Shown here piece after piece: positions 5,006 to 37,587 of a stretch of 39,782 nt of DNA. Each line of letters opens with the position of its first letter. Position 1 is the stretch's first letter. The translations under genes and the position numbers were made by a program. Source of the DNA: Klebsiella pneumoniae (GTDB taxonomy: Bacteria; Pseudomonadota; Gammaproteobacteria; Eutrophobiales; Eutrophobiaceae); the NCBI GenBank assembly GCA_945870865.1, contig CAMBTO010000010.1, forward strand, positions 1 to 39,782, written 5' to 3'. Below the pieces are notes generated by a model. It was not told the DNA's origin and searched no databases. It was given only the letters and a program-made list of their open reading frames with translations.

Positions 5006-6349
5006 TTATGATGTGGCCGACAGATCAAGTAATCCGGTGGATTCGCCGAAGCGGGTTCCCATCTTATCCATCTTGATTCCGTAAATATCCAGCATCGCCA
5101 GATGTAAATTTGTCAGCGGTGTGCCCATCTCATAGAGCACATGTCGATTACCCCTGACTGCACCACTCCCACCACCAATAAGTGCTATGGGAACGTTATA
5201 CTGATTATGTACGTCACCTTCGCCCATGCCTGCTCCGTACACTATCATTGAATTATCGAGTAATGAGGACCCATCTGCATCCTTGCTTGCCTCCATCTTT
5301 GCCAGGAAGTTACCAAACAGCTTGGCATGATAGACATCGATCTCACCTGCCTGACGTTTCCGGGTTGGGTCACCACGATGATGGGTCAAGGGGTGATAAG
5401 GATCGGTGTGCCCAAGATGCGTATAGACCAGCTCACTGTATTCCCTGGCCACCATAAACGAGAACACACGTGTCGTATCAGTCTGAAAAGCGAGATGCAA
5501 TAAATCGTATGTAAGGCCGATATGTTCCTCATGTGCAGGAATACCCACCGGACGTTTCATGTCGGGTAATTCGACATCTGCTGTTTGTTCCGCCTTCTGG
5601 ACGCGTAACTCCACATTGCGCAATGCCTCGGTAAACTCATTCAGCTTGTGGTTGTCTGCCAGGCCCAGTTTCTTCTTGACCCGGGCAGCATCCTCCCGCA
5701 CAAAATCAAGAATACTTTTTTTACGACCAATCCGACTCTGACGCGCCACCGGGTCTGTACCGCCATCACCAAACAGACGCTCGAATATCACCCGGGGTCT
5801 GTGTTCCATAGGTAACGGTGTGGTCGGACTCGACCAGGAAATAGTGTTGGTATAAGCGGAACTGTAACCGGCATTGGACTGGCCCGCGAGTTCTGCTGCG
5901 TTTTCTATACAAACCTGCAGTGAGGGCAACGGTGTTTCATTGCCGATCTTCCGGGCGATATACTGATCAACTGATGTACCTACCAGCAACTCGCTTAATG
6001 ATTTATTCGGTTCAACACCGGTCAGGAACATCGAGCTACCACCGACATGACCATCAACTGTTTCCGAGGCGCCGTTGTTCATATTACTGAGAATCAGCAC
6101 CTTGTCCCGCACGTGTTCCCAGTTTTTAAGTACATCGGTCAGTTCAAAGTTGCTTCCCCTGGCTACCGGCCGCCAGCGTTCGCGGATGATACCGTTAGGA
6201 CTATATATGTATCCGGCTCGTAGTGGCATTTTACTCTCGGAAGGCGTTGCCATCGCCGGAACCATTGCACTTAACATGGGTACGGAAATAGCCGCCCCCA
6301 TACCACGCAGGAATGTACGGCGCGGAAGTGATTTTTTGAAAATGATCAT
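5006..6349 (-). CDS. DUF1552 family Tat-exported protein
   Basis: This 447-residue protein belongs to the DUF1552 (HXXSHH) family, whose biochemical activity is not established. The N-terminus carries a twin-arginine signal (LPRRTFLRGMG followed by a hydrophobic stretch ending AMA), so it should be exported folded, possibly with a cofactor. The family motif appears as HPLTHH, a Thr variant of HxxSHH, in the C-terminal third; VYGAGMGEGDVHNQY follows. Its ATG overlaps the stop codon of the preceding DUF1592-type gene as ATGA, so the two are translationally coupled. DUF1552 proteins are typically paired with the five-DUF cytochrome-like proteins, as here, which suggests one functional unit in the periplasm. 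A canonical GGAGGG Shine-Dalgarno precedes it. Confidence 0.92.
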   Translation of the reverse strand: MIIFKKSLPRRTFLRGMGAAISVPMLSAMVPAMATPSESKMPLRAGYIYSPNGIIRERWRPVARGSNFELTDVLKNWEHVRDKVLILSNMNNGASETVDGHVGGSSMFLTGVEPNKSLSELLVGTSVDQYIARKIGNETPLPSLQVCIENAAELAGQSNAGYSSAYTNTISWSSPTTPLPMEHRPRVIFERLFGDGGTDPVARQSRIGRKKSILDFVREDAARVKKKLGLADNHKLNEFTEALRNVELRVQKAEQTADVELPDMKRPVGIPAHEEHIGLTYDLLHLAFQTDTTRVFSFMVAREYSELVYTHLGHTDPYHPLTHHRGDPTRKRQAGEIDVYHAKLFGNFLAKMEASKDADGSSLLDNSMIVYGAGMGEGDVHNQYNVPIALIGGGSGAVRGNRHVLYEMGTPLTNLHLAMLDIYGIKMDKMGTRFGESTGLLDLSATS

Positions 6350-8790
6350 GACCCAACCCTCCTCATATTAAACGGTACGCTGTTGACGATACCAAAAACG
6401 ATGGACGAAAAACGATAATCACTGTCTTTTGATGTGGCTACGATGTCACGCACGGTAGACATATCATAATGTTCGAGAGGGCGTCCGAGCGCATAGATCA
6501 GCAAATTTTGTGTGAACGCGCCCGCAATCACCTTCGGACTGCTTAACAGTGCCTGTTGCAGTTGTGCCGGCCCCTCAAATGCAATACCACTCGGCAACTT
6601 TCCGGCGGCATTGATCGGTTTACCCTCATCTTCGGTCCGCCATCTTCCGATCGCATCATAGTTTTCAAGACCGAAGCCTATCGGATCCATCTGGTTATGA
6701 CACACGGCGCAAACGGGGTTTGCGGGATGTTTCTCCATCCGCTCGCGCAAGGTCGGATTACTTTCTCCAGGCTTGGCGTCGGTGGCCTCCAGCGGCGGTA
6801 TATCGGCCGGTGGTGGTGGTGGCGGAGAGGCCAGGATATAACTTAATACCCATTTTCCACGTAACACGGTGGAGTTACGGTTCGGATATGTGGTGATAGA
6901 CAGGATACTGGCCCGTGCGAGTAATCCACGCTGATTGGGGTCATCCAGAGTCACGCGACGGAAGCGGCTACCGTAGACATTCTTGATTCCATAATGCCGG
7001 GCCAGACGTTCATTCAGATAGGTGTAATCCGCCCTGAACAGATCCAGTATGGAACGATCCTCCTGGAAGATACTGCCGAGAAACAGTCTGATTTCCGTAT
7101 AAAGATTCTGGCGCAGTGTCTCATCAAAGTCCGGGAAGATTTCCTGGTTTTTGGTCAGCAGTGGTAGATTGCGTAATAATAACCACTGATCTGCAAAATC
7201 AGTTACCAGCGTTGTGGCACGTTTGTCTTTCAGCATGCGTCGCACCTGCTGATCGAGTACCGCTGGATCACGCAGTTTGCCCTGCTCGGCCAGTGTCAGT
7301 AATTCGTTATCAGGAATACTTCCCCAGAGGAAAAACGACAGGCGTGACGCCAGATCCAGATCGCTGAGGGTATAGAGTTCACCCTGTACCAGATTCTCCG
7401 GGTCATCCTCGATACGAAACAGAAATTCCATGGAGACTAGCAGGCCTTCAATTGCCATCTGGATTCCCGCATCAAAGGTCCCGTTCTGATCACGGGCCTG
7501 CTGATACAGACCCATCAAAGAGTTGATGGTGTCATCTTCTACCGGGCGACGATGGGCCAGCCGTGCGAAACTGGACAGTATCTTTCTGGCACACGGATCT
7601 TCTTCGGATTTGTTGTTCGGTGTACAGATAAATATCTTGTCCCGACTGGCCGTATTACCAGCACCCGTCACGTTTAACGGACCCGTAATCATTACACTGC
7701 TGACCCAGGGGTCACGCCAAGCGCGTTCAAAGTCACCTTCGATCTTGGCCTTGTCCCAGTTTTCAAATGTCTGGGGCGGGATGGCACCTTCCCAGGCAAA
7801 GGGTTCATCCAGAAATGCCACCTGTACGTTATGCGTACCGGCCTTCATCGGGAATTTTATCTCCAGTTTTGAATCCGCTGTTCGTTCATACTGGGCCTGA
7901 TCAAAATCGGGTGGTACCTTGTCCGCGCCACCGTTGGCCAGGCCGAGGCCCACATTTTCGCCACCGACTGTCATTAGCTTGACCCGTTTGCCATCGACGC
8001 GTACATCCAGACGCCGCGGCTCATTGATACCGATAACCAGTGCGGACCCGGAGGTTCTCAATAAACGCACATTCAGCACATATTCACCATCAACCGGAAA
8101 ATTATGACGAACAGCAAGCCCGCCACGTGTCCCGAAAGGCAGATCCTCGCTCATGCGGTCATTCTGCAGCAGCTTCGGATCGATATTGTACTGGGCGGTA
8201 TCTGTTTCTATCGTGGGATCACCGACCGCCATGCGGCTAATCTTGCGGGCTGCCGCAATATAGCTCTCCATCAATACGTCTGACACTGAAAGCAGGTCGG
8301 CGAGATTATCAAACCCACCAGAGTTATCCGGAGGTAGCAACGAGGCCCCGTCAATCTCCACTCCCAACAAATCACGAACCGCATTCGTATATTCCGTCCG
8401 GTTCAGTCTGTGAGCCGCCGCCATCTTACCGGGCTCAGGGCTGGCACTGGACATCTTGTCCAGTGTGGTTGCCAGATATACCGGGAAGTTCTCATAAAAG
8501 GATTCATCCGGCCGTGGCATACCGACCGGTGGCATGGAGCGCAGAGACAGTTTCGTAATGACTTTTTCCCAGAGTTGCGGGTTTTCGCGAAGGTCATCCA
8601 GATTCGCCTTGTCCAGTTCAAGGAAGGCGGTTTTCAGCGTCTGGTTATGGCAGGTAACACAATACTGATTAAGCGTCTTGCGATAATGCGAGGCATCATT
8701 TGTTGCATTGTCAGTTGTCTGTGCCAGCACAGGTAAACTGCTGGCGATTGCCAGCATCGCAACAAGGAAACGTGATGAATCTCGAATCAT
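6346..8790 (-). CDS. DUF1587/1595/1592/1588/1585 c-type heme protein
   Basis: The protein has about 814 residues and the modular architecture first noted in planctomycetes. A signal peptide (ending VLAQ) is followed by CVTCH at about residue 44, a heme-binding motif. Next come a DUF1587-like region (AHRLNRTEYTNAVRDLLG), a beta-rich segment, a DUF1595-like region (FARLAHRRPV), DUF1592 (LASRLSFFLWGSIPD), DUF1588 (DYTYLNERLARHYG and a run of six Pro) and DUF1585 (IYALGRPLEHYD). A second heme motif, CAVCH, lies near residue 694. It is probably a periplasmic electron-transfer or oxidative protein; the substrate is unknown. It is coupled by a 4-base overlap to the DUF1552 gene. ATG at 8790 is preferred because it places the signal peptide at the N-terminus; in-frame ATGs exist upstream at 8814 and 8862. 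Confidence 0.9.
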   Translation of the reverse strand: MIRDSSRFLVAMLAIASSLPVLAQTTDNATNDASHYRKTLNQYCVTCHNQTLKTAFLELDKANLDDLRENPQLWEKVITKLSLRSMPPVGMPRPDESFYENFPVYLATTLDKMSSASPEPGKMAAAHRLNRTEYTNAVRDLLGVEIDGASLLPPDNSGGFDNLADLLSVSDVLMESYIAAARKISRMAVGDPTIETDTAQYNIDPKLLQNDRMSEDLPFGTRGGLAVRHNFPVDGEYVLNVRLLRTSGSALVIGINEPRRLDVRVDGKRVKLMTVGGENVGLGLANGGADKVPPDFDQAQYERTADSKLEIKFPMKAGTHNVQVAFLDEPFAWEGAIPPQTFENWDKAKIEGDFERAWRDPWVSSVMITGPLNVTGAGNTASRDKIFICTPNNKSEEDPCARKILSSFARLAHRRPVEDDTINSLMGLYQQARDQNGTFDAGIQMAIEGLLVSMEFLFRIEDDPENLVQGELYTLSDLDLASRLSFFLWGSIPDNELLTLAEQGKLRDPAVLDQQVRRMLKDKRATTLVTDFADQWLLLRNLPLLTKNQEIFPDFDETLRQNLYTEIRLFLGSIFQEDRSILDLFRADYTYLNERLARHYGIKNVYGSRFRRVTLDDPNQRGLLARASILSITTYPNRNSTVLRGKWVLSYILASPPPPPPADIPPLEATDAKPGESNPTLRERMEKHPANPVCAVCHNQMDPIGFGLENYDAIGRWRTEDEGKPINAAGKLPSGIAFEGPAQLQQALLSSPKVIAGAFTQNLLIYALGRPLEHYDMSTVRDIVATSKDSDYRFSSIVFGIVNSVPFNMRRVGS

Positions 8791-32145: not shown

Positions 32146-32931
32146 TTAATGGGTCATCGCGTAGACAATATAATTGATACCAAACTTGTAGGCGAGTGCG
32201 GTCATTGGCTCCGGATAGACCGGATCATCGGCATGTTCCCAGGCATCGCCCATGTCCATATTGTAATTTATCGCAACCAGCAGTCGCCCGTCGTCGGCAT
32301 AGATACCCTTCCAGCTGGCCGGGCCCTGCATCTGTGCACCGATCTCACCGGACAGGGTACGCACCAGATGACGACGTCCCGGGATCTGGGTACGCTGATT
32401 CAGATCATAGAATACATGCAAGATAGGATCATCCTCCTGCATGTTGATGATAGGCCGGTCTGGAAACACGCGGCGAATACTCTCTGTAAAAATGAGCCAG
32501 TCGTTACTGCCATGAAAATCATCTACCACCAGAAAACCGCCCCGTTCCAGATATTCTCGCAAGCGCTTTGCCTCGGCATCCGACAGATACCAGGTACCGA
32601 CCTGTTGTACGAATAACCAGGGATGATCAAATATCCGATCATCATTCAGGGCCAGATGTATGCTGTCATCGGCAGCATTGATACGGGTCAGGCGACGGAT
32701 TCCCTGGGTAATATGGTATTCGGCGGCGGGGTAGTCTATCGACCACATACCGTAACGGTTCGCCTGTGGGTTATCGGCATAGATCAGTCTGGCCATGTGG
32801 AATTCCGCTTCCGGTGTCTCGCGATCAGCGACGTGCTGGTATCCATTCTGACCGGAGGCACGCAACGACACCAGTGCACATAACAACAGCAAAAACAGCA
32901 GTGGGTAAGTTCGTCGATGTGGGGCAGGCAT
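32146..32931 (-). CDS. DUF4159 domain protein, exported
   Basis: The 261-residue protein has an N-terminal hydrophobic signal (LLFLLLLCALVSLRASGQ) and a DUF4159 domain: FHMARLIYADNPQANRYGMW, LREYLERGGFLVVDDFHG and the C-terminal AYKFGINYIVYAMTH. The fold resembles class I glutamine amidotransferase-like proteins, and the activity is unknown. DUF4159 genes often sit in MoxR/DUF58/VWA clusters; here it is about 6.5 kb from that operon. A frame extends upstream to 32991, but the gltA terminator hairpin (32965-32988) lies inside that extension, so the ATG at 32931 is preferred. Confidence 0.87.
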   Translation of the reverse strand: MPAPHRRTYPLLFLLLLCALVSLRASGQNGYQHVADRETPEAEFHMARLIYADNPQANRYGMWSIDYPAAEYHITQGIRRLTRINAADDSIHLALNDDRIFDHPWLFVQQVGTWYLSDAEAKRLREYLERGGFLVVDDFHGSNDWLIFTESIRRVFPDRPIINMQEDDPILHVFYDLNQRTQIPGRRHLVRTLSGEIGAQMQGPASWKGIYADDGRLLVAINYNMDMGDAWEHADDPVYPEPMTALAYKFGINYIVYAMTH

Positions 32932-32964
32932 TCTCACTGACAAGCCTGCATTTTCAGAGAAAGA

Positions 32965-32988
32965 CCCACCGGGCATCGGCCCGGTGGG
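32965..32988 (-). terminator. Intrinsic terminator of gltA
   Basis: A 10-bp GC-rich stem (CCCACCGGGC at 32965-32974 with GCCCGGTGGG at 32979-32988) has an ATCG loop. On the minus strand TCTTTCTCTG follows. It lies 60 bp after the gltA stop. Confidence 0.75.
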
Positions 32989-33047
32989 CAACAGTGTTCC
33001 AGATAAACTGCCCGGCCAGCATCTCCAGGCATGTTCATCACGGCAGA

Positions 33048-34331
33048 TTACTTCCGCTTTTCGATTGCTACGTAGTCCCTGGAGACCGGACCGGTATAGA
33101 TCTGGCGCGGACGCCCAATCTTGCTGTGCGGGTCTTCCATTATTTCTTTCAGATGCGCAATCCAGCCCGGTAGACGACCGATAGCGAACATGACGGTAAA
33201 CATATTGACCGGTATACCCATCGCCTTGTAAAGGATACCGCTGTAGAAATCGACGTTCGGGTACAGATTACGTTCAATGAAATACGGGTCAGACAGTGCA
33301 GTTTCTTCCATCTGTTTTGCCAGTTCCAGCAAAGGATCAGACATGCCGCGTTTTGAGAGTATGACGTCGGACATCTGTTTTAGTATCTTGGCACGCGGGT
33401 CATAAGTCTTGTATACCCGATGACCAAAGCCCATTAAACGTGACTTCGAATTCTTGTCCTTTACCTTGCTGATGAAGTCAGCACAGGTGGTACCGCTGTT
33501 ATGGATTTCCTCAAGCATTTCGATAACGGCCTGATTCGCGCCACCATGCAACGGTCCCCACAGTGCGAGTATACCGGCGCTGACCGATGCATACATGTTC
33601 GCCTGACTCGAACCGACCAGTCGTACTGTAGAGGTCGAACAATTCTGTTCATGATCAGCATGCAGGATGAGCAGGATATTCAATGCACGCACCATGTCAT
33701 CATCCATCTCGTAGGGTTCCGCAGGCACACCAAACATCATCTGCAGAAAGTTGGCGCAGTAGCTCAAATGATTTTGCGGATAAATAACGGGATAGCCGAT
33801 ACTCTTCTTGTAACTGAATGCGGCTATCGTACGTAGCTTAGATAACAGGCGAGGTACCTGCATATCAAAATTATCAAACACATTCTTCGACTCGGGATAA
33901 TACGCCGAGAGTGAACACACCATCGATGAGAGGATCGCCATCGGATGTGCAGCGGCCGGGTAACCGTCGAAGAAATGTTTCATGTCCTCATGGATCATGC
34001 TGTGCATGGTCAATGATTTGGAGAAGGTCTCCAGTTGCTGCTTGTTTGGCAGGTTGCCATATATCAGCAGGTAGCTGGTCTCAACAAAGGTGGATTTTTC
34101 CGCCAGCTGTTCAATCGGGATGCCGCGGTAACGCAATATGCCCTGCTCACCATCCAGATAAGTGATAGAGCTGGTGGTAGCACCCGTATTTACATAACCC
34201 GGGTCCAGCGTGATATATCCTGTTTTCGCCCGCAGGTTTGATATATCTATCGCCTTCTCGTTTTCGCTACCCGTGATAACCGGGAACTCATACTCTTTAC
34301 CTTCCAGTATTACCTTTGCTATCTCACTCAT
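33048..34331 (-). CDS. gltA: Citrate synthase, type II
   Basis: Citrate synthase condenses acetyl-CoA and oxaloacetate at the entry of the TCA cycle. The 427-residue length matches the hexameric, NADH-regulated type of gammaproteobacteria. Active-site His residues are in WGPLHGGANQAV and GFGHRVYKTYDPRAK, and the catalytic Asp in YPNVDFYSG. A GAGGCG Shine-Dalgarno precedes the ATG. It is not next to succinate dehydrogenase genes. Instead it begins 9 bp after a SET-domain gene on the same strand, which implies cotranscription unless a promoter lies within that gene. Confidence 0.98.
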   Translation of the reverse strand: MSEIAKVILEGKEYEFPVITGSENEKAIDISNLRAKTGYITLDPGYVNTGATTSSITYLDGEQGILRYRGIPIEQLAEKSTFVETSYLLIYGNLPNKQQLETFSKSLTMHSMIHEDMKHFFDGYPAAAHPMAILSSMVCSLSAYYPESKNVFDNFDMQVPRLLSKLRTIAAFSYKKSIGYPVIYPQNHLSYCANFLQMMFGVPAEPYEMDDDMVRALNILLILHADHEQNCSTSTVRLVGSSQANMYASVSAGILALWGPLHGGANQAVIEMLEEIHNSGTTCADFISKVKDKNSKSRLMGFGHRVYKTYDPRAKILKQMSDVILSKRGMSDPLLELAKQMEETALSDPYFIERNLYPNVDFYSGILYKAMGIPVNMFTVMFAIGRLPGWIAHLKEIMEDPHSKIGRPRQIYTGPVSRDYVAIEKRK

Positions 34332-34340
34332 AAATACGCC

Positions 34341-34928
34341 TCATTTTTGATATTGCGTCTGTAACACAGAAAGATATTCTGCCTCTCCAGCAATATATGA
34401 AAAAACACTTTCCCTGACATCCTGGTCTAGATAGGAAAGCAATGCCTGGGGAACCTTGTCAGTATACTTGAGTGATTCAATTATCCTTGCATCCCATCCG
34501 GAGTAATATCTGGCAATGTCCTTGCCGGATATTGTCTTGCGGCAGTCCGTTTTCGTACATGTTACTTCCATATCATAGGGCAGATTAAACAGGCCATAAT
34601 CGTCAGTCACCTGTTCGCCGGGCATGATATCCCTGATGGCTATCTCAAAACCGTAGCCCGTACTGATCGTATTCGCATGGCAACAATGGTTGACATACTT
34701 CCCATGGTCCCAGCATAACACCCTGTTTCCTTCCGGATCAATAAAGGCATACCGATCGACAGTCTGCTTCTGCAACGGATCCAATGCTGCGTAACGATTT
34801 GCGTCAATTTCGATATCCAGACTGTCCTGCGCATAGGTTATTGTACCTGCAGGAATATGCCGGGTTGCAAACACCCCAAACCCGATTTCCGGGCTGACGA
34901 ACCTGAGTTCCGTGTCGGGGTGCATCAT
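34341..34928 (-). CDS. SET-domain protein 1 (putative lysine methyltransferase)
   Basis: The 195-residue protein has a SET domain: an N-terminal GFGVFATRHIPAGTITY, KYVNHCCHAN (the NHxC core used for SAM binding) and PGEQVTDDYGLF near the usual tyrosine motif. A post-SET-like CTKTDC follows, then a helical C-terminal region. SET proteins methylate lysines using SAM; bacterial ones are sporadic and their targets are mostly unknown. It lies 14 bp after SET protein 2 and 9 bp before gltA on the same strand. No signal peptide is visible, so it is cytoplasmic. Confidence 0.87.
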   Translation of the reverse strand: MMHPDTELRFVSPEIGFGVFATRHIPAGTITYAQDSLDIEIDANRYAALDPLQKQTVDRYAFIDPEGNRVLCWDHGKYVNHCCHANTISTGYGFEIAIRDIMPGEQVTDDYGLFNLPYDMEVTCTKTDCRKTISGKDIARYYSGWDARIIESLKYTDKVPQALLSYLDQDVRESVFSYIAGEAEYLSVLQTQYQK

Positions 34929-34942
34929 ATTTTGTATCGCTT

Positions 34943-35431
34943 CTAGACTGCAGTTTGTGAAAACAGCGAGGCGTACGAAATATTGTCCAGTATCCGTTTG
35001 CGTTTCGTGGCTGTCAGGGAAAAATATTGTCTCCAGTCCACATTATTCATTTCCAGAACAAAACAATCGTCTGCATCGTAGGAGAGGAAGTAGTCTTCCA
35101 GTAGTTCCTCGCCTGCCCCGATATCACGCAGGGCAATCTCCTGCCCTTCTTCATTAAAACCGATGTTGGCCAGTTGGGTCGAGTGATTGATAAACCGTGC
35201 ATTATCGGTGACGTAATAATACTGGTTCTTGCGTTTGTACGAATACAGACAGAAGTATTCGACCACATCGGGTGATTCCTTGCACAAACGCGTCAGCCAG
35301 CGGGAGCCATACACAAAGTCCACTGCCGGATTGAATTCCCACACCCTGTCTCCTGCCTTTACTGCTACGCCAGCATAAACACCAATACCATGGACGCCGG
35401 ATTGGGCAAGATAGGTAGGAACTACCAACAT
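34943..35431 (-). CDS. SET-domain protein 2 (putative lysine methyltransferase)
   Basis: The 162-residue SET-domain protein begins with HGIGVYAGVAVKAGDRVWEF and has a core of DNARFINHSTQLANIG. The usual Cys after RFINHS is replaced by Thr, so a post-SET zinc site is unlikely. GEELLEDYFLSYDADD corresponds to the SAM/tyrosine motif. It differs clearly from SET protein 1 in size and C-terminus, so the two are not a recent duplication. It is the first gene of the apparent SET-SET-gltA operon. A GGAG sits 11 nt before the ATG, somewhat far. Confidence 0.85.
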   Translation of the reverse strand: MLVVPTYLAQSGVHGIGVYAGVAVKAGDRVWEFNPAVDFVYGSRWLTRLCKESPDVVEYFCLYSYKRKNQYYYVTDNARFINHSTQLANIGFNEEGQEIALRDIGAGEELLEDYFLSYDADDCFVLEMNNVDWRQYFSLTATKRKRILDNISYASLFSQTAV

Positions 35432-35754
35432 ACTTTTTATGGCTCCAGGAAACGGTAAGAAACTTTCTTGTTTTTATCACTTTACCCGCCCGCGTGCAGG
35501 CCCGGCAACGGCAAAAATATTACGCTGATCCTACAGGACATAACAAGTAGTTTTTTGGTGTCCCTTCCCACAAAATCCGGTCAGTGTGTGACCATTATGC
35601 ACTGGTCTGGAACAGTCTGAAATTCACATTCCGAATATTGCCCCACGGCAGGGCGTCAGCCCGTTTTCACATCCCCGAATCTATTCATTGTGTTTCGGAT
35701 TATTGCTAATTAAGATGGGGCAATAGCCATCAACAGCGGAACCGCATTAACCCG
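35432..35754. other. Divergent intergenic region upstream of the SET genes
   Basis: About 320 bp without a supported gene. It must contain promoters for the minus-strand SET-SET-gltA operon and the plus-strand secreted-protein gene. A perfect 10-bp inverted repeat lies in its right half. No riboswitch or sRNA was recognised. Confidence 0.5.
35636..35725. repeat. 10-bp inverted repeat in the SET/secreted-protein intergenic region
   Basis: TATTGCCCCA at 35636-35645 and TGGGGCAATA at 35716-35725 are perfect reverse complements separated by 70 bp. The right arm ends 29 bp before the ATG at 35755. It could be paired operator sites or the base of a stem in the 5' leader. Confidence 0.5.
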
Positions 35755-36387
35755 ATGAAACCTGCAACTGCCTTGCGCTTCCGGACAATCCTCCTGCTCG
35801 TACTGATGTATATCTCCCATACCAGCATGGCCCAGGCCCCCCCGATCCGCCCAGATTATAGCGGCAACTGGCAAATTAATCTGAAGTTGAGTGACGATAC
35901 CGACAAACGGGTTGAAGAATCGATCCGCGCAGCAGGCGGTCGGCCCGACAGCGGTGGCAAACGTGGCAAGGGCCGTTACAAGGGTGGTCCGCCGGAGCAG
36001 GCACTTTACGACCATATCAGCTATGACGAAACCCTGATGTTCGAGCAGAATGAACCAGCATTTCGACTGATCTATGCTGACGGTTTCGAGCGCGTATTCT
36101 ATTCGGACAATCGCAAGCGGGTCGTCAGCGCCAGTGGCACGGCCACCTTCGACAAGCAGGACTTTTCCTTTGCCTCCTGGGACGGAGACAAACTGCTGGT
36201 TGAATCACGACCCCGGGACGGTGGCTGGATTAACGAAACCTTCGAGATATTGACGGTGAGTGGACAGCTCAGGGTAACGCTGGAGCTGAAACCCTCCTCG
36301 TTTGGCGAACCTATCAATATCGTCAGGATTTATGACAGGCTCGGTGCTGACGGAACAACGGGACAAAAGTCTTCGAGACGCAATTAA
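35755..36387 (+). CDS. Exported protein of unknown function
   Basis: The 210-residue protein has a signal peptide (about 1-26, ending TSMAQ). YSGNWQINLKLSDD follows, and the region from about residue 85 looks beta-rich (FRLIYADGFERVFYSDN, FEILTVSGQLRVTLEL). The SGxW opening resembles small lipocalin-like secreted proteins, but I do not recognise a named family. Residues about 60-80 are Gly/Lys/Arg-rich. There is no clear Shine-Dalgarno, and a C7 run lies right after the signal peptide codons. It is followed 75 bp later by dapE on the same strand. Confidence 0.78.
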   Translation: MKPATALRFRTILLLVLMYISHTSMAQAPPIRPDYSGNWQINLKLSDDTDKRVEESIRAAGGRPDSGGKRGKGRYKGGPPEQALYDHISYDETLMFEQNEPAFRLIYADGFERVFYSDNRKRVVSASGTATFDKQDFSFASWDGDKLLVESRPRDGGWINETFEILTVSGQLRVTLELKPSSFGEPINIVRIYDRLGADGTTGQKSSRRN

Positions 36388-36462: not shown

Positions 36463-37587
36463 ATGACGCTGGAACTGGCCACCAGGCTGATTAAACTCAA
36501 CTCTGTCACACCGGATGATGGCGGTTGTATGCCGCTGATTACCGGTCGACTGGAAAAATACGGATTTACCGCTGTTAATCTGCGCTTTGAAGACACCGAC
36601 AATCTGTGGATCACTCACGGCAACACCGGGCCGGTCCTGTGTCTGCTCGGACATACCGATGTAGTACCGCCCGGCCCGCTGGACAAATGGCAAAGCGACC
36701 CGTTTGTCCCGGAAATCCGTGACGGCTATCTGTATGGCCGAGGTGCCGCCGATATGAAAGGCAGTATCGCAGCGATGGTGACCGCAATGGAGCGCTTTAT
36801 CGCTGCCCACCCGCAACATGAGGGGACGCTGGCCATGTTATTGACCTCGGACGAGGAAGGCCGTGCGACCAACGGCACGATCAAGGTCGTAAATTATCTG
36901 AACGAACAGGGTATCCGCATCAAATGGTGTATTGTCGGCGAACCGTCCAGCCAGCACCAGATTGGAGATACCGTCAAAAACGGACGACGCGGCTCGTTAA
37001 CCGGACATCTGACTGTCCATGGCGTCCAGGGCCACGTAGCCTATCCGGAGCGCTCTGAAAACCCGATCCACAGGCTCATGCCCGTTTTAAACGAATTATG
37101 TAGCACGGTCTGGGACCACGGTAACCGTTTTTATACCCCGACCAGCTTCCAGATCTCGAATATCAACGCCGGGACCGGTGCAGACAATGTCATCCCCGGT
37201 ACAATCAAGGTGCAATTTAACTTCCGCTACTCGACCGAAGTGACTGAATTACAACTGAAAGGCAAGGTGGAATCCTTACTGATGGCCCAGAAACTACGAT
37301 TCGATCTGGAATGGTTACCCTCAAGTAAGCCGTTCCTGACTGATTCCGGTGACCTGCTCAGCGTGACGCAACGAGTCATCCAGGAAACGACCGGCCTGTC
37401 ACCCCAGATTTCGACTTCGGGTGGCACCTCGGACGGTCGATTCATCGCGCCAACCGGTGCGGAGGTGGTGGAGCTGGGTCCGGTCAACGACACCATCCAT
37501 AAACTGAATGAATGTGTGAAGGTCAGCGATCTGGATCTGTTATCCCGGATGTACGAACAGATAATTACCGGGCTGCTGGCAAGATAA
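36463..37587 (+). CDS. dapE: Succinyl-diaminopimelate desuccinylase
   Basis: DapE hydrolyses N-succinyl-LL-diaminopimelate in lysine and peptidoglycan synthesis. The 374-residue enzyme is a di-zinc M20 peptidase-like protein: His64 and Asp66 in LLGHTDVV, GRGAADMKGS with the bridging Asp, TSDEEG with the catalytic Glu, and a last His in IHKLNECV. NGRRGSLTGHLTVHGVQGH is in the dimerisation-domain part. A frame begins upstream at 36397, but the ATG at 36463 gives the normal N-terminus (MTLELATRLIKLNSVTPDD). Confidence 0.97.
   Translation: MTLELATRLIKLNSVTPDDGGCMPLITGRLEKYGFTAVNLRFEDTDNLWITHGNTGPVLCLLGHTDVVPPGPLDKWQSDPFVPEIRDGYLYGRGAADMKGSIAAMVTAMERFIAAHPQHEGTLAMLLTSDEEGRATNGTIKVVNYLNEQGIRIKWCIVGEPSSQHQIGDTVKNGRRGSLTGHLTVHGVQGHVAYPERSENPIHRLMPVLNELCSTVWDHGNRFYTPTSFQISNINAGTGADNVIPGTIKVQFNFRYSTEVTELQLKGKVESLLMAQKLRFDLEWLPSSKPFLTDSGDLLSVTQRVIQETTGLSPQISTSGGTSDGRFIAPTGAEVVELGPVNDTIHKLNECVKVSDLDLLSRMYEQIITGLLAR

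Follow-up and report, generated by a model that had tools for sequence, protein, structure and literature searches.

Does the position of two methyltransferase-like genes directly in front of gltA mean that their products act on citrate synthase? This question is raised by a stretch of 39,782 nucleotides (hereafter the window), in which two SET-domain genes, here called SET2 and SET1, precede gltA on the same strand. An earlier note on this DNA had proposed that the two proteins modify citrate synthase or another component of the TCA cycle. For most bacterial SET proteins, no substrate is known. The locus is a compact test case, with the SET pair very probably on the transcript of a major metabolic enzyme. 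The reading that we favor, at a probability of roughly 0.55, is that a laterally gained pair of SET methyltransferase genes has lodged before gltA and that its products act on another substrate.

Organization of the SET2-SET1-gltA locus

SET2, SET1 and gltA follow one another on the minus strand with intergenic gaps of 14 and 9 bp (Table 1); the strand, order and gaps given in the earlier note are borne out by the ORF coordinates. Both upstream genes scored above the PF00856 cut-off of 22.4 bits (SET1, 43.2 bits; SET2, 30.3 bits), which confirms the observation of two SET-domain genes at this locus, and they are the sole PF00856 matches (E up to 0.001) across the 2.17-Mb assembly. GltA passed the cut-off of TIGR01798 (553.8 versus 485.15 bits) and also that of NF004126. 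On the two flanks, the DUF4159 gene holds this position in each of the five genus genomes examined, and orf210 gave no match in searches of Pfam and NCBIfam.

Table 1 Features of the SET2-SET1-gltA region (positions in the window)
Feature	Position	Strand	Description
DUF4159 protein	32146..32991	-	left-hand flank, downstream of gltA
gltA	33048..34331	-	type I citrate synthase, 427 aa; TIGR01798
SET1 stop / gltA Shine-Dalgarno overlap	34332..34343	-	TGA 34343-34341 over GAGG, 9-bp gap
SET1	34341..34928	-	195 aa; PF00856 E 5.6e-11; SET-family member; predicted model pLDDT 90.8
SET2	34943..35431	-	162 aa; PF00856 E 6e-7; alignment of 3; dN/dS 0.017-0.052
Conserved 56-base block upstream of SET2	35502..35557	-	from the G000 versus G004 alignment; position counted from the sequence
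orf210	35755..36387	+	divergent open reading frame, right-hand flank of the SET pair
dapE	36463-37587		next after orf210

Transcription and translation of gltA

A shared SET2-SET1-gltA transcript is very likely, given the 9-bp gap between SET1 and gltA and the position of the SET1 stop codon inside the gltA ribosome-binding site. Outside SET1, the gap leaves no space for a gltA promoter, and the gene order is kept in three species; this anatomy supports the earlier proposal that gltA is cotranscribed with the SET genes. Because the SET1 TGA lies within the GAGG before the gltA ATG, the overlap further suggests that the translation of SET1 and gltA may be coupled. GAGG also precedes gltA in G002, one of the SET-less sister species.

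A promoter and a terminator separating SET1 from gltA would be at odds with a common transcript. No terminator-like site was found on the minus strand between the two genes, and the one promoter-like site, located inside the end of SET1 (34420-34392, minus strand), occurs at chance frequency: a consensus scan of 33800-35900 gave 4 promoter-like sites versus 3.7 expected from shuffled sequence. This site makes an internal promoter in SET1 a possible alternative, but the idea gained no support from the codons, as SET1 showed no significant synonymous conservation (permutation p 0.13); no window of synonymous conservation was significant in SET2 (p 0.94) or gltA (p 0.96) either.

Upstream of SET2, a 56-base block is kept in all three species with the SET pair. 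Its local alignment score between G000 and G004 was 52, a value attained by 0/200 shuffles (maximum 26), and the block was undetected upstream of gltA in G002 and G003. It contains TTGTTA (35546-35541) and TAATAT (35522-35517) with an 18-bp spacer, which form a candidate promoter for SET2-SET1-gltA; this element is missing from the consensus scan's list of promoter-like sites. Retention of the old gltA upstream region in front of SET2 was also considered and dropped, since alignments of the carriers with G002 and G003 scored at shuffle level.

SET1 and SET2 as putative methyltransferases

SET1 keeps GxG, NHxC and DDY (Tyr111), and SET2 keeps GxG (G15-G17), NHS (82-84) and EDY (Tyr114); we take these to be the SET motifs GxG, NHxx and the tyrosine of ExxxDY. 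In the SET1 family (best 80 of 149 relatives), G16, G18, N80, H81 and Y111 are invariant in 80/80 members, and the N-terminus carries the motif M[IM]HPDTEL. For SET2, G15-x-G17, N82-H83 and Y114 were found in 3/3 aligned sequences. The predicted model of SET1 has the SET fold, its best matches being SET lysine methyltransferases (ASH1L, Z 10.5, rmsd 2.5, 127 aligned residues), and a profile search with SET1 retrieved ASH1L at 8.5e-10. The SET2 model, built from 3 sequences, had a pLDDT of 35.5.

The closest solved folds to SET1 are those of the SET protein lysine methyltransferases (PF00856; the ASH1L and MLL family), whose GxG, NH and Tyr motifs are also present in SET1 and SET2. Unlike these enzymes, the two proteins are bacterial, have only 162-195 aa and no pre-SET, and SET1 bears a helical C-terminal extension, which begins at residue 137 and is reached by few of the structural matches listed. 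They differ in the post-SET region as well. The post-SET zinc site of histone-type lysine methyltransferases consists of NHxC and a CxCx(n)C cysteine cluster. SET1 keeps Cys83, Cys124 and Cys129; the second Cys of CxC is missing, though the relatives in G016 and G027 have it, which indicates the loss of one cluster cysteine from SET1. SET2 has NHST and no post-SET cysteine cluster, and a complete histone-type site (NHxC plus CxCx(n)C) was found in neither protein.

Both SET genes are under purifying selection. The dN/dS values were 0.017-0.052 for SET2 and 0.081-0.139 for SET1 in comparisons at dS 0.16 to 1.5, and between G000 and G004 (dS 1.1-1.8) they were 0.052 for SET2, 0.099 for SET1 and 0.021 for gltA. 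The patchy presence of the two genes across the genus might suggest that they have no function and are merely carried along, neutrally or in decay. This is highly improbable: the substitution pattern already largely refutes such a view, and the intact frames of both genes in three species and the invariant motifs also argue against it. SET1 and SET2 are probably active SAM-dependent methyltransferases, and fold and family make lysine methylation of a protein the likeliest reaction.

Another conceivable activity is the methylation of small molecules, with gltA as an expression partner or as part of a shared context of carboxylate metabolism. The model for this is BurB of Burkholderia thailandensis, a SET-domain methionine S-methyltransferase of 172 aa (PDB 9l4t, 9l4v; PMC12542666). 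BurB is likewise a small bacterial SET protein with an active-site Tyr; structural comparison with SET1 ranks it high (9l4v, Z 9.8, rmsd 3.3, 124 aligned residues) and first among the bacterial enzymes listed, and it is the best single-sequence PDB match of SET1, though at E 0.1. Since the published methionine contacts of BurB are main-chain and its Tyr is not catalytic (PMC12542666), the sequence offers no clear signature by which to judge a BurB-like activity. However, BurB shares 18% identity with SET1 over the aligned core, and the SET1 profile fits protein lysine methyltransferases (8.5e-10) better than BurB (2.6e-5). In addition, no DMSP or related pathway genes were recognised near SET1 or SET2, nor was any gene for sulfonium or amino-acid methylation recognised among the ten window genes around the pair. 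We consider a small-molecule substrate unlikely and prefer a protein substrate. Among other bacterial SET proteins, NUE and RomA/LegAS4 of pathogens act on host histones (PMC3980110), whereas no host link was seen for the SET pair of the window.

Presence and absence of the pair within the genus

The SET2-SET1-gltA order was found in three of the five genus genomes examined (G000, G001 and G004). The linkage is therefore not unique to this genome but recurs in two further species; as a claim about genomes in general, conservation of the order stands within the genus (3/5) and fails in the other gammaproteobacterial SET genomes (0/80, see below). The GltA proteins of the other carriers are 98 and 93% identical to that of the window, and those of G002 and G003 82-86%. 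In G002 and G003, the pair is missing from an otherwise identical gene order (amidohydrolase, DUF4159, gltA, orf210, dapE, nudix, clpS), with gltA directly facing orf210; the synteny of G003 was pieced from two contigs. No PF00856 match was found anywhere in either genome. These two sister species make it possible to compare GltA and the whole methyl-proteome with and without the pair.

The same synteny with the SET genes (G000, G001, G004) and without them (G002, G003) supports lateral gain. One gain in the ancestor of the carriers is the simplest account; a possible alternative is that the ancestor of G002 and G003 lost the pair. The recurrence of the order in two further species, together with the low dN/dS, indicates that the SET-SET-gltA arrangement is more than chance. 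The order is preserved between G000 and G004 despite dS above 1, and the linkage could be under selection, but such conservation is weak evidence, because the whole block from the amidohydrolase to clpS is equally syntenic.

Linkage to citrate synthase outside the genus

A PF00856 match was present in 109/369 gammaproteobacterial genomes sampled, so the earlier description of bacterial SET proteins as sporadic needs a qualifier. The linkage test took 80 of the 108 SET-carrying gammaproteobacterial genomes other than that of the window, 77 of them with a citrate synthase match. In 0/80 did a SET gene lie within 20 kb of citrate synthase on one contig, and the nearest distances, start to start, were 26.6 and 30.4 kb (G096 and G236). 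Neighbours past contig ends would be missed in this test; 9 of the 92 SET places in these genomes start less than 3 kb from the contig start (left ends counted). Beyond the genus, the family includes eight genomes with a SET match (G005, G006, G007, G013, G016, G019, G027 and G028), and in these the SET and citrate synthase matches never stand on a common contig.

Within the SET1 family (best 80 of 149 relatives), a citrate synthase neighbour was found at 3/80 loci, two of them from the genus. The third, L137 (599-2385), belongs to an unclassified bacterial MAG, in which the start of a SET1-family gene and a type II citrate synthase gene overlap by 4 bp. This locus has no SET2, and its SET lies far from SET1 of the window in the gene tree. 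The linked enzyme is the second citrate synthase paralogue of that genome, the other one matching GltA better. The link is lacking in the nearest tree neighbours, L205, L208 and L209. A conserved linkage in the L137 lineage was rejected: a SET1-family profile match was present in 53/282 genomes of the phylum, and 30 loci from this phylum (flanks of 1.5 kb or less) held a citrate synthase gene solely at L137's own (L203). If about three in some 5,000 genes encode citrate synthase, we estimate the chance of one such neighbour among roughly 100 loci at near 0.1. The overlap in L137 keeps the citrate synthase idea alive, yet it is roughly what chance allows.

GltA as a candidate substrate

If SET1 and/or SET2 tuned the activity or assembly of citrate synthase (or of a different TCA enzyme) by methylating one of its lysines, co-expression would match enzyme to substrate. 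The tight operon in three species fits such a relation, as does the 4-bp overlap with a type II citrate synthase in the unrelated L137, whose SET belongs to a distant part of the tree. The earlier note was right that mitochondrial citrate synthase is methylated by a non-SET enzyme: METTL12/CSKMT, which has a seven-beta-strand fold, methylates Lys-368 of human citrate synthase, seven residues before the catalytic Asp-375 and within the peptide EQGKAKNPWPNV (residues 363-374; PMC5518231). The likeness to the present locus lies in the general notion that a methyltransferase could be dedicated to citrate synthase. The folds differ, and the target position, aligned via the shared PNVD motif, is Arg354 in GltA of the window. 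The residue is Arg in all compared GltAs that cover the site (the first fragment of G003 ends short of it), leaving another GltA lysine as a possible acceptor.

Twenty-four GltA lysines are common to the three carriers, of which 0/24 are absent from all six pair-less relatives (G002 and G003, which are SET-less, and G005, G006, G007 and G028, which have other SET genes). Lysines 36, 105 and 289 are common to the carriers and absent from G002 and G003, as methylation of GltA would allow. However, the reverse set is also three, with lysines of G002/G003 at 32, 215 and 284 absent from the carriers, so that carrier-specific lysines are not in excess; moreover, lysines 36, 105 and 289 are each found in one pair-less relative (G007 or G005). 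The adjacency itself is missing in 80/80 other gammaproteobacterial SET genomes tested and in 77/80 SET1-family loci (best 80 of 149 relatives), and the case of L137 is weakened by its unlinked tree neighbours and by the linked enzyme being a second paralogue.

The hypothesis that the SET proteins modify citrate synthase thus gained no positive support, the linkage being narrow, the human site an Arg and the lysines without excess, and we hold methylation of GltA or another TCA enzyme to be rather unlikely. The narrower proposal of a bacterial citrate synthase methylation module, which would act on a non-mitochondrial lysine of GltA or on a partner enzyme and would have arisen as the same pairing independently in L137, is quite doubtful. 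Searches of the open-licence literature listed no paper in which a SET protein modifies a bacterial citrate synthase.

Our preferred reading runs as follows. Two SET-domain methyltransferase genes would have entered the ancestor of the three species by horizontal transfer, presumably in this direction, and settled directly upstream of gltA. Very probably, transcription of gltA now starts at a promoter located upstream of SET2, and SET1 and gltA may be translationally coupled. The likeliest reason for the position before gltA is that the pair settled in a metabolic operon with steady expression, not a specific enzyme-substrate relation with GltA; the substrate is then probably another protein than GltA.

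Distribution and origin of the SET1 family

A pattern scan of the genomes of 84,980 species gave 149 SET1 relatives, the best 80 of which were kept. These 80 come from Bacteroidota, Balneolota, Myxococcota, Desulfovibrionaceae, Brevibacillus and others, and their gene neighbours vary from clade to clade. In the gene tree, SET1 of the window lies in a mixed group, next to rows from Balneolota and Myxococcota, and the G016 and G027 copies of the SET1 family fall in a branch apart from it; a repeat of the tree used 88 rows, after 9 had been removed by name and 13 Muricauda-type loci had been thinned out. The SET1 family is widespread and apparently moves horizontally. SET1 relatives occur on 11/72,556 plasmid records, 7 of the 11 from Priestia. 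The GC3 of the SET genes (0.51-0.54) is slightly below that of seven neighbouring genes (0.57-0.64), in line with a transfer.

A phage origin was considered and rejected, because two pattern-based scans of IMG/VR, sensitive to close relatives only, yielded no relative. A SET2 relative (34%) lies on a 636-kb uncultured phage record (LR756504.1:605161-605541).

At eight of the best 80 loci (of 149 relatives), the SET1 relative stands between bioA and a ketosynthase-like gene in a biotin operon (L127, L131, L133, L138, L141, L142, L145 and L147; Flavobacteriaceae, Flavobacterium and Salegentibacter). The biotin-operon ketosynthase was found in 45 of 80 genomes searched; 30 Flavobacteriaceae biotin operons were examined, and a SET gene lay between bioA and the ketosynthase gene in three of them. 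The biotin-operon SET is an optional insert in Flavobacteriaceae. A SET enzyme replacing BioC is unsupported, with SET in 3/30 loci and the BioC cut-off missed by 13/14 controls. A BioC over the NCBIfam cut-off was found in 0/8 genomes with the biotin-operon SET, which says little because only 1/14 control genomes passes this cut-off. We read the biotin-operon and other loci as signs of a gene settling in running operons, and the occurrence of SET1 relatives in unrelated operons calls for caution in inferring a substrate from the neighbourhood.

Other SET genes of the family have neighbours of their own. In G027, G016 and G028 (L063, L064 and L067), a different SET gene adjoins two further genes, which we take to encode an AnmK-like kinase and an ErpA-like iron-sulfur protein; G028 has one extra ORF between the SET gene and the ErpA-like gene. 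In G019 (L070:7633-8172), dapE is closely followed by a SET gene in convergent orientation, and the further neighbours are presumably decarboxylase-, spermidine synthase- and SpeD-like genes.

SET1 and SET2 as a pair

SET1 and SET2 are jointly present or jointly absent across the five genomes of the genus, and the two may work as a pair. A stricter version holds that they form one functional unit, a hetero-oligomer or two-step enzyme with a shared substrate, to which gltA is incidental. Besides their joint occurrence, this version draws on neighbouring SET pairs at 7/80 loci (best 80 of 149 relatives; including two of the genus) and at 4/30 loci of L137's phylum, as well as on four alphaproteobacterial MAG tandem loci whose two members form a clade of their own. 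However, the partner elsewhere is SET1-like, not SET2-like, and no separate SET1-type gene was seen in the four further genomes where a SET2-type match is strong. Moreover, the second copy at L107 (Humidesulfovibrio) groups with the alphaproteobacterial second copies in one tree and with L216 and L217 in the repeat. One unit with a shared substrate is therefore improbable, and we retain the reading of a laterally gained pair settled before gltA.

Tandem SET1-like pairs occur at L102, L107, L114, L123 and L134 (about 6001-7259), that is, at the four alphaproteobacterial MAG loci and in Humidesulfovibrio. In the gene tree, the first copies form one clade, and a separate clade holds the second copies from the four MAGs; this is what would be expected if the tandem copies had been retained as a unit.
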